DNA of 27,695 bases. Origin: a virus. The position numbers and the translations under genes were made by a program. The notes under the pieces were generated by a model. It did not search any database, was not told where the DNA came from, and saw nothing but the letters and a program-made list of their open reading frames with translations. The stretch covers positions 1 through 27,695 of the IMG/VR virus record IMGVR_UViG_3300009156_000021. The stretch is one strand, 5' to 3'. This document shows, piece after piece, positions 7,759 through 27,695 of the stretch. Within the stretch, counting starts at the first letter, position 1, and each line of letters begins with the position of its first letter.

Positions 7759-8226
7759 ATGGCTGAATTCTCAAGGATCGAGGACTTCATCAGGAAGACG
7801 GGCAAGATCGGGCCTTCGGCGGATATCACGACGGCGAACGTCTACCGGAACGCCTTGGAGAAGTCGGCCTACGGGGATTTTGGGCGGCAGTACGGGGCGG
7901 GACTCAACGACATCACGAACTACCTAGCTAGGAGTGGTCCTCTCTACGACTCCGGAGCGGCCACCGCACTGAGGGCGAGACTCGCAAGCCAGCTCTACGG
8001 GCAGGCACAGAGCCGCATCCAGGGGAGTTACGCGGACTATCTGAGGCAACTCCAGATGATGCGAATTCAGAACGCCTATCAGAAGGAACTCTTGAGGTAC
8101 CAGAAGAAGGCTCAAGGGGGCGGGTTCGGTAGCACGCTCGGCTCGATCGCGGGCGGCGTCGGCGGGGCGATCCTCGGCGGGCCTGCGGGAGCGATGGCCG
8201 GATATCAGATCGGCGGGAGCCTGTAG
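7759..8226 (+). CDS. Putative internal virion (DNA ejection) protein, glycine-zipper C-terminus
   Basis: This encodes 155 residues. A TAGGAGGGG ribosome-binding site lies just upstream. The body (about residues 15-118) is helical and rich in Ala, Gln and Tyr. The last 35 residues are a Gly/Ala zipper (GGGFGSTLGSIAGGVGGAIL pattern) that could insert in a membrane. Ejection proteins of short-tailed phages have this mix, since they leave the capsid and help build a channel in the host envelope. The two next genes look like its partners. Confidence 0.7.
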   Translation: MAEFSRIEDFIRKTGKIGPSADITTANVYRNALEKSAYGDFGRQYGAGLNDITNYLARSGPLYDSGAATALRARLASQLYGQAQSRIQGSYADYLRQLQMMRIQNAYQKELLRYQKKAQGGGFGSTLGSIAGGVGGAILGGPAGAMAGYQIGGSL

Positions 8227-8228
8227 CC

Positions 8229-9194
8229 ATGGCCTACCTTCCACCGCTACCGGACGTGCCTGGAGGCCTCGGGACCGCGGAATCCATCTACCAGTCGAAG
8301 TACGGCACCGCCCCTTACGACGAATTGAGGCGGAAGGCCCAGTCCCGGTTCTCCTTGATGAACCTTCTCGCAGGGGGTCTCTCAGGGCTTGCGGCGGGTC
8401 CAGGGCTCAACTTCGGCTATAGCCTAGGGCGAGGGTTCGGCCTGAGTTACGGACGCTCCCAGGCGGCTTCTAGGGCGGCTCAAGAGTACGCGATGAAAGC
8501 CGCAGAGCAGCAGCAGGCGGAAGAAGACAAGGCGTATCAGAGGCAGAAGGACGAGGCATATCTACGGATTGCCGAGAAGAACGCCACTAGGGAGCCTCCG
8601 AAGCCGGAGAAGCTGGAACTCTGGCAGCGGAGCCCGGAGGACCAAGCCAAGGCTATCGCTTTCGAGGCGAACCGAGCCAAGGCCCTAGCCGCAGCCGTTC
8701 CCAAGCCCGGAGAGAAGCCGAAGTCTGAAAAGCCTAGCCTCGCGGACTTTGACAAATTTGCCGACGACTATAGGCAAGAAAAAGACGTCTCCAACTTCAC
8801 GACCATTCGGGACTACTACAAGCGAATGCAGAGTAGTTCCAAGCTCGGCACGGGTCCTGGGGATCTGTCCCTGATCTTCTCATTTATGAAGGTTCTGGAC
8901 CCAACGTCCGTAGTCCGGGAGACGGAATTCAGTAACGCGGAGCAGGCGGTCGGGCGGGTCCAGCAGTTCTTCAACGTCCCAAAGGGATGGGTCCAGGGCA
9001 CTAGGTTGACCCCCGTAGGCCGGGCCGGGTTTATGAGGGCTGCCAAGGAAATCTACGACACGCAGCGGCGCACGCTAGGGGCCACTCAGGAACGCTATCG
9101 GCGTGCCGCCAAGAAATACGGCGTAGACCCAAATGACTTCATCACGGATTACGGAGACTCGACCGGAGATCCCCTAGACCAATTCATGAGGTAG
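8229..9194 (+). CDS. Internal virion / DNA ejection protein with conserved FMKxLDP domain
   Basis: This encodes 321 residues. Residues of about 45-75 are Gly/Leu-rich and membrane-active in look. Residues 80-170 are charged and helical (coiled coil, Q/E/K-rich). Residues 212-240 read LSLIFSFMKVLDPTSVVRE followed by EFSNAEQAVG. This is the hallmark of a domain found in ejection and peptidoglycan-associated virion proteins of many phages. The C-terminus (YRRAAKKYGVDPNDFI) also fits that domain. It probably travels with the genome into the host. Confidence 0.78.
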   Translation: MAYLPPLPDVPGGLGTAESIYQSKYGTAPYDELRRKAQSRFSLMNLLAGGLSGLAAGPGLNFGYSLGRGFGLSYGRSQAASRAAQEYAMKAAEQQQAEEDKAYQRQKDEAYLRIAEKNATREPPKPEKLELWQRSPEDQAKAIAFEANRAKALAAAVPKPGEKPKSEKPSLADFDKFADDYRQEKDVSNFTTIRDYYKRMQSSSKLGTGPGDLSLIFSFMKVLDPTSVVRETEFSNAEQAVGRVQQFFNVPKGWVQGTRLTPVGRAGFMRAAKEIYDTQRRTLGATQERYRRAAKKYGVDPNDFITDYGDSTGDPLDQFMR

Positions 9195-14464: not shown

Positions 14465-14750
14465 CGGCCTGGGCGACGTCCCGTAGTCTCTCGCTGAGGC
14501 GAGCTCGTTCTTTGCGGTACGCCTCGGCCCCTTGGCAGTCGTGGCAGAGGTGGACCGAGATTCCGTAGATGTTATCGATCGGCCAAAGGAGCCCTTCTCG
14601 CTTCGAGCAGTAGTCGCACGGTTCTCCCGGATAGGTACCGGCGCGAAAGGCGCGGATCTTGGCCACGTTTTCAGCCATCCCCACCTTCATCCCAGAGGCG
14701 ACCAGGGGACCCACTAGCCCCTCAAGCGCCTTCGCTACCGTTTCGTCCAT
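14457..14750 (-). CDS. Small zinc-finger protein
   Basis: This encodes 97 residues. C45-D-Y-C48 and C69-H-D-C72 are spaced like a treble-clef or ribbon zinc site. The C-terminus is a charged helix (AYRKERARLSERLRDVAQ). It overlaps the replication initiator end by 29 bases, and an AGGAGCACG ribosome-binding site precedes the ATG. The link with the initiator could mean a loader or accessory role, but that is inference. Confidence 0.68.
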   Translation of the reverse strand: MDETVAKALEGLVGPLVASGMKVGMAENVAKIRAFRAGTYPGEPCDYCSKREGLLWPIDNIYGISVHLCHDCQGAEAYRKERARLSERLRDVAQADA

Positions 14751-15519
14751 CGTGCTCCTCCTTCCACCGCTTCACCTTTTCCAGGAAATCGTTTCTGGGG
14801 CGTTTTTGTGGCTCGGGGGATACCCGAGTAGGGGTCGAGGCTAGATCGTCGTCCCATCGCCTCCCATTGAGCCAGGAAGCGGCGTGTGGGATGAATTGGA
14901 TCTCCCGGCCTTGCCATTCGGTGGCTTTGTAGCGTCGGAGGCCGTCCATGACGTGATCGAGTTCGGCCTGGGTGAGTTTCTTCCAGGCTTTGGATGCTGC
15001 GGCCTTGCCTACCTTTCGGGGGTATTGGGGCCAGAAGTTGTCTTCGAAGGAGATCAAACTCAAACTCGGTCGAGCGTCAGCTTGACCAAGAGTCTTTTCT
15101 TTATGTGTCTGTATCTGTGTCTGTATAGCGTTACCGAGCGTTACAGAGCGTTTCACAGCGTTACGGTGCTTCCTCACCCGCTCCCGGGTCAGGCTTCTCT
15201 CACGGTCTAAGTCTTTGCGGTTCAGGTATTTCTCGTGGTTGAGGATCAACCATCCCCAGTCTCGATGATTGTCTAATCGGGCGATTCGTGACCCTTCGAA
15301 GTCGGCGGTGCGGCTCATCGGATCGCCCTCTTCGAGCTCTCGAATGGCATCGATGACGCGCTCGAGGGGTAATCCGGTGGCATCAGCGATGGCTTTGGGG
15401 ATCATGTCGAGGATGCCTCGGGCGTCACAGTTCGAGATCATGAAGACGAAGACCAACTGGAGGTCGGACTTTCCACGCATGGAGCCGGTCCAGAGCGAGT
15501 TGAACACTTTCCCATACAC
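14722..15519 (-). CDS. Replication initiator (lambda-O-like organisation)
   Basis: This encodes 265 residues from the GTG at 15519, with GGGAGG 9 bases upstream. The longer ORF from 15582 adds a Pro/Gly-rich stretch untypical of the family. Residues of about 5-95 are a winged-helix-type domain as in phage replisome organisers (SLWTGSMRGKSDLQLVFVF, then ERVIDAIRELEEGDPMSRT). A basic linker at 105-145 holds the iterons in its DNA. Residues 160-222 are a second domain (FWPQYPRKVGKAAASKAW ... IPHAASWLNGRRWDDD), common in phage replication proteins. It probably binds the origin and recruits the host helicase. Confidence 0.8.
   Translation of the reverse strand: MYGKVFNSLWTGSMRGKSDLQLVFVFMISNCDARGILDMIPKAIADATGLPLERVIDAIRELEEGDPMSRTADFEGSRIARLDNHRDWGWLILNHEKYLNRKDLDRERSLTRERVRKHRNAVKRSVTLGNAIQTQIQTHKEKTLGQADARPSLSLISFEDNFWPQYPRKVGKAAASKAWKKLTQAELDHVMDGLRRYKATEWQGREIQFIPHAASWLNGRRWDDDLASTPTRVSPEPQKRPRNDFLEKVKRWKEEHDGRNGSEGA
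15087..15166. other. Putative replication origin: iterons plus A+T-richer flank
   Basis: Four 10-base units starting with AGCG run head to tail at 15127-15166 (AGCGTTACCG, AGCGTTACAG, AGCGTTTCAC, AGCGTTACGG). They sit inside the initiator gene, in the linker-coding part. On one side lies a pyrimidine-rich, A+T-richer stretch (15087-15126) in an otherwise G+C-rich genome. This is the arrangement of the lambda origin: initiator binding sites in the O gene beside an unwinding region. Function is inferred and not shown. Confidence 0.65.
15104..15127. repeat. Two tandem 12-base repeats beside the iterons
   Basis: TGTGTCTGTATC is followed directly by TGTGTCTGTATA, differing at one base. The pair abuts the first iteron and forms most of the A+T-richer flank. 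Such 12- or 13-base repeats are typical of unwinding elements in replication origins. Confidence 0.75.
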
Positions 15520-15684
15520 GCCTCCCAACCTCCCTGGAAGATCCGCCCCCAAGCCCCGCACTGGGTAGAGCGAGGGGGGCACGCTGCCGGTCTACCGCCG
15601 AGCCGGAGGCTACCCCTAGCTCGACCCTGCGGCCCCAGTGCTATCCCCTTTGGGCCGTCCTTGGCCCCACACCCGTCCCTGGAA

Positions 15685-19944: not shown

Positions 19945-21478
19945 GGAATTCAGGGCCCGAGCTCGCACCTCTCCCTGGCTCGCCTACCCCCTAACCGCCG
20001 TTCCCAAGCTCCTCCCGTGGCACGAGTCGAAGAGCCACTATAGGGTCCTCTCCGGACCCAACGGAGGAGGCAAATCCACCGCCGGAGCCGCCGATTTCGT
20101 CTCCTATGCGCTCGGCTATAACCCCTTACGAGACGAGCACTACGAGACCCCGAACGTATGTTGGGCGGTTTGCGTGGAATACAACTCCTCAGGCCGTGTC
20201 ATGTTCCGGAAGATCTCGGACATGCTCCCCCGAGACCGTAACGGGAAGCCCCGATGGAAGTTCTACAAGCAAGAACACCTGTTTGTCCTCGATAACGGCT
20301 CCCATATCGCCCTCAAAAGCCAAAAAGAGGGCGAATCCAGCCTCTTGGCCGAGCGTTGTCGCGCCATCTGGATCGATGAAGCCATGGGCGGCGAAAGGGG
20401 AGAGGAGAACTTCGGAGAACTTCAGGCCCGAGGGCTCCCAGATCAGCCCCTAGACATGCTTTTCACGCTCACACCCAAGATGGACATCGGGTTGGACTGG
20501 ATGAGGCGCAAACTATGGTGCGAACCAGGCCAAGAACCCCACGAAGACTTCATTCCAGGAACCTTTTGCCTCCGATTCGAGCTCAACGACTGTCTCAAGG
20601 AAAACGGAGGCTATCTTTCGAGGGAATACGTCGCGCAACGAGAGGCTACGGTCGATCCCGACGAACGAGAGGCCCGAATCCTGGGGCTTTGGACCCCGTT
20701 CATGTCCCGGCCCGCGTTTTCCTTCCGTCTCTTGCTTGAAGCCGCCAACCGTGCCCCCAAAACCGAGTCGGTACGGTTCAAGGGGTCCCCCTTCTCCGGC
20801 TATAAGATGGAGGTCTGCTCAGGTGGCCCGAACCGAATGCAAAGGGACCGTCAAACCGCACATTCGAACATCGCAGCCTGGGACCCGTCCTCAGGACTCG
20901 GAAAAGGTCACGACAACTCCGCTTTTTCCGTCTTTGATCGCGGGGATCTATGCCAGGTGTTTCACGCCACTGCCAACGACATGGGTCCAGACCAATACCT
21001 TCGGGAAATCGTCCTGCCTGCCTGCTACTACTATAATGAAGCCCTCCTCGCCATCGAGGTCAACGGGGAAGGCGGCGCCGCGGCCCTCCAAGCGGCCAAG
21101 GAAAGCGGATACCCCAACCTCTATATGCAAAAGAACCTAGAAAAAGCCGGAGATCCCTATCTCGACAAGTGGGGGTGGCGCACCACGGAACAGAGTAGGG
21201 GCCGGATGATGGACGCCATGCAGAGGGCCTTAAAAGAGAACAAATGGACCCCCAGTAGGGATTTGGTCGAGGAAATGGGCCACGTCATGAAGAAAATGAT
21301 GCCCTCCGGGAAGATCCGTATCGAGCACGCAGACGGCTTCCACGACGACTTGACCATGGCCTCGGCGATCGCCCTCGCCATCCACTACGAAGAGCCGCTT
21401 TATGAGTGGCCCGATTTCAACACGCTTCGGGTCCGGTACGGCCCTACGAGAACCCTTCAAGAACTGCCCTTTACGTGA
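19925..21478 (+). CDS. terL: Terminase large subunit
   Basis: This encodes 517 residues from the TTG at 19925. The ATG at 19850 would overlap the small subunit by 95 bases and add a Ser-rich tail. The ATPase has Walker A GPNGGGKST (residues 44-52) and Walker B AIWIDEA (about 147-153). The nuclease acidic residues are D320 in AAWDPSSG, E378 in AIEVNGEG and the HDD at 473-475. It cuts concatemers and pumps DNA into the prohead with the portal. It ends in a GTGA overlap with the first glycosyltransferase. Confidence 0.92.
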   Translation: MSNPLLEEFRARARTSPWLAYPLTAVPKLLPWHESKSHYRVLSGPNGGGKSTAGAADFVSYALGYNPLRDEHYETPNVCWAVCVEYNSSGRVMFRKISDMLPRDRNGKPRWKFYKQEHLFVLDNGSHIALKSQKEGESSLLAERCRAIWIDEAMGGERGEENFGELQARGLPDQPLDMLFTLTPKMDIGLDWMRRKLWCEPGQEPHEDFIPGTFCLRFELNDCLKENGGYLSREYVAQREATVDPDEREARILGLWTPFMSRPAFSFRLLLEAANRAPKTESVRFKGSPFSGYKMEVCSGGPNRMQRDRQTAHSNIAAWDPSSGLGKGHDNSAFSVFDRGDLCQVFHATANDMGPDQYLREIVLPACYYYNEALLAIEVNGEGGAAALQAAKESGYPNLYMQKNLEKAGDPYLDKWGWRTTEQSRGRMMDAMQRALKENKWTPSRDLVEEMGHVMKKMMPSGKIRIEHADGFHDDLTMASAIALAIHYEEPLYEWPDFNTLRVRYGPTRTLQELPFT

Positions 21479-21978
21479 GCCTATCGATCATCGTCCCCAC
21501 CATGGGCCGGGACACCCTCTCGAGGACCCTAGCCTCCGTCTCCCCGCAGCTCTGGCCCGGAGACGAGATCCTAGTCCTTAGGGACGAGACCCGAGACTCG
21601 GGAAACACCCCTCGAGACCGGGCCATGAAACAAGCCTCCGGGACCCACCTTTGGTTCCTGGACGATGACGATATGGCTACCCCGGACGCGCTCCGGTTCC
21701 TGAGACAAGCCGCCCGTCCCCAAACAATGTCCTGCTTCAAGATGCTCTATGGTGGAAGGTCTGAGGAGCCGGGCCGGATTCTCTGGGAACGCCCGAAGCT
21801 CGAGCCCGGCAACGTGGGGACCCCTTGCTGCCTCATCCCGAATCTACCCAATCTGCCATCCTGGACTGAGGCCAATGATGAGCTCATCTTCTCGGATATC
21901 CGGTTTCTGATGAAGGTGGAACGCCTCTGCTCAAACCTGACCTGGGAGGATAGCGTCGTGGCTATCATTCGGCCTTGA
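21475..21978 (+). CDS. GT-A family (GT2-like) glycosyltransferase
   Basis: This encodes 167 residues from the GTG overlapping the terminase TGA. LSIIVPTMGRDTLSRTLASV opens the nucleotide-sugar domain. RDRAMKQASGTHLWFLDDDD (residues 47-66) carries the acidic metal site. At 167 residues it is short and may be a minimal catalytic domain or work with the next protein. It probably adds sugars to a virion protein or alters the host surface. The substrate is unknown. TTGA overlap joins it to its neighbour. Confidence 0.8.
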   Translation: MSLSIIVPTMGRDTLSRTLASVSPQLWPGDEILVLRDETRDSGNTPRDRAMKQASGTHLWFLDDDDMATPDALRFLRQAARPQTMSCFKMLYGGRSEEPGRILWERPKLEPGNVGTPCCLIPNLPNLPSWTEANDELIFSDIRFLMKVERLCSNLTWEDSVVAIIRP

Positions 21979-22553
21979 TCTACCACTTCACGCCCTTCTT
22001 TAAGGGGGACATCTCCGAGGGGATCAATCGCTCCGTCGAGGCGGTTCCCGACGACGCCTGGATCTGTATCCGGGACGCGGACACCATGTTCCTCACCTGG
22101 AAGCAACAGTGGCAGCTCGAGGAGATCACCCAAAAGACCGACTTCGGACTCCTGGGATGCCTCACAAACCGATGCTACCCAACGTATTGCATGTACGAAG
22201 GCAAACTCAGCGAGAACTACGACATCCTCTATCATGTGGATCTGGCGAAACGGCTCGAGAAGGAACACTGGGGCGAGGTCGAAGATGCGGTCGAATTGGG
22301 ATCGAAAGACGGCTCGGAAGGTCTCCTCTATGGACAGTTCCTCCTCTTCCCGAAGAAGGTCTGGAAGGAGGTCGGAGGATTCCAGGGCCATATCAACCAT
22401 GACTTTGAGTTCTCGAGGCGAGTCCTCAAGGCTGGCCACAGGCTCGGGGTCGCCACTGGGGTCTACATCTTCCATGCCTTCCGGCCTGGGGTGAAGATCC
22501 CCTGGTTTGAAGCCAACCTGGACGCCTCCCTTCTCGATGAGTGTGCCAGATAG
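21975..22553 (+). CDS. Second glycosyltransferase (GT-A-like)
   Basis: This encodes 192 residues from a TTG overlapping the previous TGA. DDAWICIRDADTMFL (DAD at residues 34-36) gives the metal site. LGCLTNRCYP follows, and the end GHRLGVATGVYIFHAFRPG has the usual His of phage and cellular GT-A enzymes. It differs clearly from the first GT, so the two are not tandem duplicates. Both lie inside the packaging module, ahead of a new promoter. Confidence 0.8.
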   Translation: MIYHFTPFFKGDISEGINRSVEAVPDDAWICIRDADTMFLTWKQQWQLEEITQKTDFGLLGCLTNRCYPTYCMYEGKLSENYDILYHVDLAKRLEKEHWGEVEDAVELGSKDGSEGLLYGQFLLFPKKVWKEVGGFQGHINHDFEFSRRVLKAGHRLGVATGVYIFHAFRPGVKIPWFEANLDASLLDECAR

Positions 22554-27510: not shown

Positions 27511-27695
27511 GCCCCACGTCCTAAGGCGGGAGATCATCTCGCAGGACAAGGACGGCACGCTCGAGAAGATCTACGAGAAGCCCTATGACCGTGTGACGCT
27601 CGATGAGAACGGGGCCGAGAAGGTAGAGCGTGTCGAGCCCTGGGAAGTGAGGGCGACTGGAAAGAAGGTCCAGGAACTCAAGGGGGCCTTCAAGG
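27491..27695 (+). CDS. 5' part of the junction-spanning gene
   Basis: The ATG at 27491 overlaps the end of the preceding gene by 20 bases. Reading runs without a stop through the repeated 123 bases and continues at the start of the window to 374. The N-terminal part is acidic then mixed (REIISQDKDGTLEKIYEKP). This supports treating the window as one closed circle with a 151-residue gene across the join. Confidence 0.75.
   Translation, partial: MSEPETEPHVLRREIISQDKDGTLEKIYEKPYDRVTLDENGAEKVERVEPWEVRATGKKVQELKGAFK
27573..27695. repeat. Terminal direct repeat, right copy
   Basis: This is the exact copy of bases 1-123. Removing one copy gives a unique length of 27,572 bases. Confidence 0.97.

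Follow-up and report, generated by a model that had tools for sequence, protein, structure and literature searches.

The question raised by this locus is whether a short array of direct repeats, lying inside the replication initiator gene of a phage, is the origin at which that phage starts its replication. We analyzed the whole stretch of DNA available (27,695 nucleotides, hereafter the window) together with homologous initiator genes from other phages. We consider it highly probable that bp 15090–15166 is the phage replication origin, composed of iterons and an unwinding element and situated in the linker-coding part of the phage's own initiator gene.

Genomic context and organization of the repeats

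The two ends of the record (bp 1–123 and bp 27573–27695) were identical, and because of this 123-bp direct terminal repeat the record was taken as a complete circle of 27,572 bp. The initiator gene (bp 14722–15582) is on the minus strand, which corrects an earlier note on this DNA, and encodes 286 amino acids when counted from the listed GTG. Since the conserved part of the protein begins near residues 17–25, translation may in fact begin at the GTG near bp 15516. The gene is flanked, in the same early block, by genes for an Erf-like annealing protein (bp 16853–15915) and an HNH/NinG-like nuclease (bp 14065–13523). Elsewhere in the window, two adjacent ORFs (bp 21406–21978 and bp 21975–22553) appeared to be glycosyltransferase-like, as judged by eye only (e.g., LSIIVPTMGRDTLSRTLASVSPQLWPGDEILVLRD); they were located between the terminase and portal genes, which is an odd place for such genes.

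Four units, with the core GTAACGCT and with starts exactly 10 bp apart, were confirmed at bp 15127–15166, as had been noted. On the plus strand they are AGCGTTACCG (bp 15127–15136), AGCGTTACAG (bp 15137–15146), AGCGTTTCAC (bp 15147–15156) and AGCGTTACGG (bp 15157–15166); in coding-strand order (minus strand, bp 15166–15127) the array reads CCGTAACGCT GTGAAACGCT CTGTAACGCT CGGTAACGCT. The deviant unit is the third on the plus strand and hence the second on the coding strand, and its deviation is patterned, as described below. Directly adjoining the iterons is a 6-nt tandem tract (minus strand, bp 15103–15126), a putative unwinding element, which reads ATACAG ACACAG ATACAG ACACAT on the coding strand and groups with the (CAGNNN)n tracts seen in relatives. 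This tract had been described as two tandem 12-mers, which are real, though better read as four 6-nt units. It is continued by an A-rich stretch (minus strand, bp 15090–15102; AAAGAAAAGACTC on the coding strand). The pyrimidine-rich, A+T-richer stretch that had been noted next to the repeats also proved to be real, and it holds the least stable DNA calculated for the record: at lengths of 30, 35, 40 and 50 nt, the stability minimum of the whole sequence was in each case within bp 15078–15127, beside the array. A search of the window for a second array like that at bp 15127–15166 found none. GC skew, proposed earlier as a marker of the origin, had its extremes near 11.0 kb and 27.1 kb, away from the array at 15.1 kb; it neither supports nor localizes an origin and was judged uninformative as a locator.

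The initiator protein

The protein matched phrog_270 (replication initiation protein; E = 8.3e-28) over residues 36–282, which is most of its length, and further profile matches were obtained with phrog_9474 (E = 1.9e-16) and with the primosomal protein profile phrog_9327 (E = 3.5e-19). Neither Pfam nor NCBIfam gave a match of the initiator protein to the lambda O family. The description of the locus as lambda-style is supported for the proposed placement of the origin inside the initiator gene, but not for the protein, which by sequence does not belong to the lambda O family. A search for phrog_270 across two bacterial genomes gave no match.

In the AlphaFold2 model, an N-terminal winged-helix domain with a basic helix is encoded by bp 15145–15534 (minus strand); the winged helix comprises residues 17–115, and a long basic helix (residues 116–146) precedes the linker. 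The model block had a pLDDT of 90–98 across most of residues 31–120. Fold matches of this domain in the PDB were winged helices, including RepA of pPS10, although they were weak and none had an E-value below 0.001, and a PDB sequence search with the initiator returned nothing useful. For the C-terminal domain (minus strand, bp 14722–15075; residues ~170–286) the AlphaFold2 model was poor and no fold could be confidently predicted. Residues 130–282 are homologous to primosomal and replication proteins, and on this sequence evidence the C-terminal domain is probably the half that binds a partner or a helicase loader.

Selection on the DNA and the reading-frame signature

The array is the strongest lag-10 repeat of the window, with 24 of 30 positions matching, compared with a maximum of 21/30 for the other lags from 5 to 20. 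When the codon order of the linker was shuffled the maximum was 20, with none of 5,000 shuffles reaching 24, and when the peptide HRNAVKRSVTLGNAI was recoded synonymously 200,000 times, a lag-10 score of 24 was never attained. Taken alone, the 6-nt tract is weaker evidence in the window: codon shuffling seldom equals it (p = 0.0004), but it is equaled by 3% of synonymous recodings.

A period of 10 bp takes the core GTAACG through all three reading frames, one of which (xxG TAA CGx) contains a stop codon. The deviant unit GTGAAACGCT falls exactly in this frame, and its change from GTAACG to GAAACG turns TAA into AAA. A blind pattern scan yielded 23 further initiators whose coding strand carries the array. 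In these, the two open frames contained 50 and 60 exact units (110 in total), whereas the stop frame had no exact unit and 25 units with one mismatch, all 25 of them changed inside the TAA (GTCACG, 8; GAAACG, 6; GCAACG, 5; GGAACG, 3; GTTACG, 3). The form found in the window, GAAACG, is therefore one of the stop-frame variants of these other initiators. Exact units cannot occur in the stop frame of a gene that is open; what is telling is that near-perfect copies are retained in it. The repeats, in the window and in its relatives, are selected as DNA and not as protein, and they are tuned to the reading frame because translation of the protein has to pass through this DNA.

Arrays in homologous initiator genes

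A whole-protein search of viral contigs returned only four relatives (L002–L005; 31–32% identical), near-identical among themselves, with no such array in the linker; for this reason sampling was switched to the N-terminal domain. Eighty viral loci were picked by this domain only, to which two from bacterial assemblies were added; broad alignments were too divergent to be used as search queries, and the genome scan yielded only these two relatives. Significance at each lag was set at p≤0.01 against codon-order shuffles after near-duplicates had been removed, and the lag method recovered the annotated iterons in the O gene of lambda as a positive control. Significant repeats were found at lag 6 in 45 of 63 linkers, at lag 10 in 18, at lag 9 in 8 and at lag 11 in 3, compared with 0–2 at each lag in the DNA encoding the N-domain. 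An earlier histogram of 6-mer spacings was discarded, since its optimizer favored the ranges being counted, and was replaced by null-controlled counts in which each linker was free to choose its own 6-mer. By this count, 33 of 64 linkers had at least 4 units spaced 9–11 bp apart (at least 3 intervals), while 0.6 were expected from codon shuffling and none was found in N-domain DNA; intervals of 12–14, 15–17, 18–20 and 21–23 bp gave only 0–1 linkers each. The motif is phage-specific (GTAACG, GTCGAC, GTGGAC, GTAGAC, GTTAGC, GTTAAC, GTCAGC and others). These statistics assume independence after near-duplicate removal, and the certainty is somewhat overstated.

Conservation of the repeats in related phages had been put forward as a check: arrays are present in 33/64 linkers, the motifs differ and some homologs have no repeats. 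No array was found in the initiator linkers of phages psageB2 and Pam4, and together with L002–L005 these cases mean that the origin is elsewhere in such phages or that the link is not universal. The view that a 10-base period would place the initiators on one face of the helix likewise fits the array in the window, but relatives use 9, 10 or 11 bp and other initiator families 12 bp, and a uniform spacing of 9 or 12 bp would rotate from unit to unit. In two loci, an HNH nuclease-like (L316) and a GIY-YIG-like (L367) segment replaces the repeat linker, the repeats being absent; it is possible that these segments are homing elements sitting in the origin.

Repeats of this kind could also be the functionless product of neutral tandem duplication or slippage, by which tandem repeats arise easily, the more so in linkers that tolerate insertions. 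Within the window, however, the core bases are conserved among the four units, whereas the 2-base spacers vary; in the homologs the spacing is confined to about one helical turn (33/64), and initiators that are divergent and have different motifs show the same position and order. We thus regard slippage as very unlikely.

The 6-nt tract and DNA stability in homologs

A clear 6-nt tract was present in 41 linkers, and in 35 of these it was (CAGNNN)n on the coding strand, compared with 9% for a random hexamer; the iteron-like stretch began upstream of the tract in 32/41. Codon usage within the tracts was locked, with GCA used for 85 of 88 Ala codons as against 177/773 outside the tracts of these genes (p = 9e-45) and ACA for all 23 Thr codons as against 92/375 elsewhere, while Glu used both GAA and GAG; the constraint on the tract consequently acts on the DNA. 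The tract is read in one reading frame in 30/32 cases; in the window the frame is another one (IQTQIQTH), whereas the relative L382 has DTDTDTDT. The linker was less stable than the N-domain DNA in 55 of 60 homologs, and the least stable 40-mer of the gene was within the linker in 37/60.

In many relatives the linker contains a simple alternating peptide (AEAEAE, DTDTDT), and the reading frame is nearly always the same one, which might suggest that selection on the protein maintains low complexity in the linker and that the repeats merely follow from it. Such selection would not account for a 10-bp period, which puts the same DNA in all three frames and so yields different peptides, nor for the failure of synonymous recoding to reproduce the periodicity of the array, the persistence of stop-frame units with one-base changes, and the locking of tract codons to GCA and ACA while Glu codons vary. 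This explanation is contradicted by these results and is extremely unlikely.

Blind scans and named phages

Three GTAACG units were searched for in viral loci irrespective of gene, giving 73 loci with a spacing of 10, 118 with spacings of 20 plus 10, at least 120 each with spacings of 11 and 12, and only 5 with a spacing of 13. A control motif of the same composition, CGAATG, gave 23 loci at spacing 10; two of these were, by eye, in initiator-like genes, indicating that other iteron motifs exist. Arrays within long ORFs were mostly in replication initiation, DnaD-like helicase loader and replisome organizer families, 12 of 70 such proteins being judged by eye as non-initiators. Among the spacing-12 matches listed, a large share were GNVT repeats of tail fibres, and other initiators were also present; tail-fibre-like GNVTGNVT proteins (L418, L420, L456, L472 and others) are a protein-level source of GTAACG at 12 bp. 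Many GTAACG arrays at one-turn spacing were located outside long ORFs. In L185, L209, L217, L248 and L260, which belong to another initiator family, an 11-bp GTAACG array was apparently inside the N-domain coding region and not in the linker, and in an initiator-like ORF of L023 (bp 7839–8828) an HNH-like segment was observed just upstream of the GTAACG array.

Arrays in the initiator linker were also identified in named phages, namely Arthrobacter phage Galaxy (11 bp), Faecalibacterium phage Lagaffe (10 bp), Pseudomonas phage PfAn1 (11 bp, plus (CAGATA)4) and Pseudomonas phage MR15 (11 bp, plus 7-nt repeats); CheeseTouch had a lag-11 signal, but within the N-terminal part. None of the named phage records examined for phrog_270, phrog_9474 and phrog_9327 had an annotated origin.

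Iteron arrays also act as centromeres in plasmid-like phages (PMC6669507), and the array might accordingly be merely hosted by the initiator gene and serve in partition (as a centromere-like site), packaging or incompatibility. The blind scans, however, link such arrays to replication initiator genes, and no partition gene was noticed among the window ORFs, as judged from the ORF list only without a partition-family search. We give this possibility hardly any weight.

Residues associated with the iteron class

The iteron class covaried most with residues 131–139 of the basic helix, and its covariation with other residues of the domain was slight; Arg135 was present in 23 of 27 members of the GTNACG class and in none of the 20 others, and mean N-domain identity was 0.454 within and 0.448 between iteron classes. 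The tree of homologs gave only one independent contrast on supported branches, and as it is weakly resolved, independence of the association cannot be demonstrated. Moreover, residues ~139–141 adjoin the start of the array, and their codons may therefore be shaped by it. The link between residues and iterons, drawn from sequence comparison alone, is suggestive but not proof.

Coevolution of this kind would equally be produced by operator sites for the encoded protein, and the fold of the N-domain, a winged helix, is similar to that of transcription regulators; the repeats might thus serve the initiator, or a repressor, in repressing its own operon, with replication starting elsewhere. The array, however, is in the middle of the gene and not at a promoter, it is paired with a 6-nt tract that is conserved and with the least stable DNA of the genome, neither of which an operator needs, and the position is one occupied by the origins of lambda and SPP1. 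We consider the operator explanation unlikely.

Interpretation

An origin embedded in the initiator gene, as the original prediction held, remains the best-supported reading, given the phrog_270 match, the predicted winged-helix N-domain, the selection on the DNA and the adjoining lowest-stability stretch; binding by the initiator, melting and firing are inferred. In the mechanism we propose, the N-terminal winged helix, probably together with the basic helix, would bind the four GTAACGCT iterons side by side, with one protomer per helical turn. The packed initiators would strain and melt the adjoining 6-nt tract, the least stable stretch of the genome, after which the C-terminal half may help bring in the helicase loader and the helicase. 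The unit that would read TAA is altered by one base, which avoids an in-frame stop.

Beyond this phage, we lean, with considerable reservation, towards the existence of a general and largely unrecognized origin module within the linker-coding region of many initiator genes of tailed phages, drawn from several families, the module consisting of phage-specific iterons 9–12 bp apart that are read by the winged helix and basic helix, followed by a (CAGNNN)n loading or unwinding tract, with one-base changes driven by the reading frame. If this is true, origins and their cognate initiators could be read directly from phage genomes. Replication origins are known for few phages, and a rule that finds iterons, tract and initiator together would allow prediction. 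Synonymous recoding would offer a clean test of origin function, and the case would show one stretch of DNA meeting the demands of protein, stop codon and binding site together.

Comparison with known systems

The lambda origin lies in the middle of gene O and has four iterons and an AT-rich region (PMC7466680). The window shares with lambda an array in the middle of the initiator gene, in which four iterons are directly beside a purine-rich, low-stability tract. It differs in that lambda has 18-bp iterons, annotated in its record with starts 20, 24 and 23 bp apart, plus the AT-rich region, whereas here the units are 10 bp long, one per turn, and are followed by a 6-nt tract; the expectation that the unit would be shorter than the lambda iteron was thus correct. 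In SPP1, oriL is within gene 38, which encodes the replisome organizer gp38, and the layout of direct repeats plus an unwinding element within the initiator gene is shared with the window (PMC6316719). SPP1 has a second origin, whereas no second array was found here. For Francisella phage KIRK, an origin with four repeats was predicted in the replication gene and proposed to be lambda-like; it is a single-phage prediction, for which no test of selection at the DNA level was noted (PMC7924643). The KIRK protein has a Phg_2220_C domain, to which the window initiator had no match. In mycobacterial prophages no repeats were reported in the regions examined, and an origin was only suggested in or beside repA (PMC7157519).

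The phrog_270, phrog_9474 and phrog_9327 initiators are the family of the window gene, and relatives among them have comparable arrays. Short-period repeats beside double-strand sites are also a feature of bacterial basal unwinding elements with the DnaA-trio, which are proposed to be a track for single-strand loading. These have 3-nt units that act with DnaA, whereas here the units are of 6 nt (CAGNNN), without DnaA, and the function is inferred. No description of the general pattern, seen here in dozens of phages, was found in the literature, most subscription journals not being covered. An origin inside the initiator gene is accordingly of a known kind, as lambda, SPP1 and KIRK illustrate; what differs is the one-turn spacing of the iterons, the 6-nt CAG tract and the breadth of the arrangement across phages.
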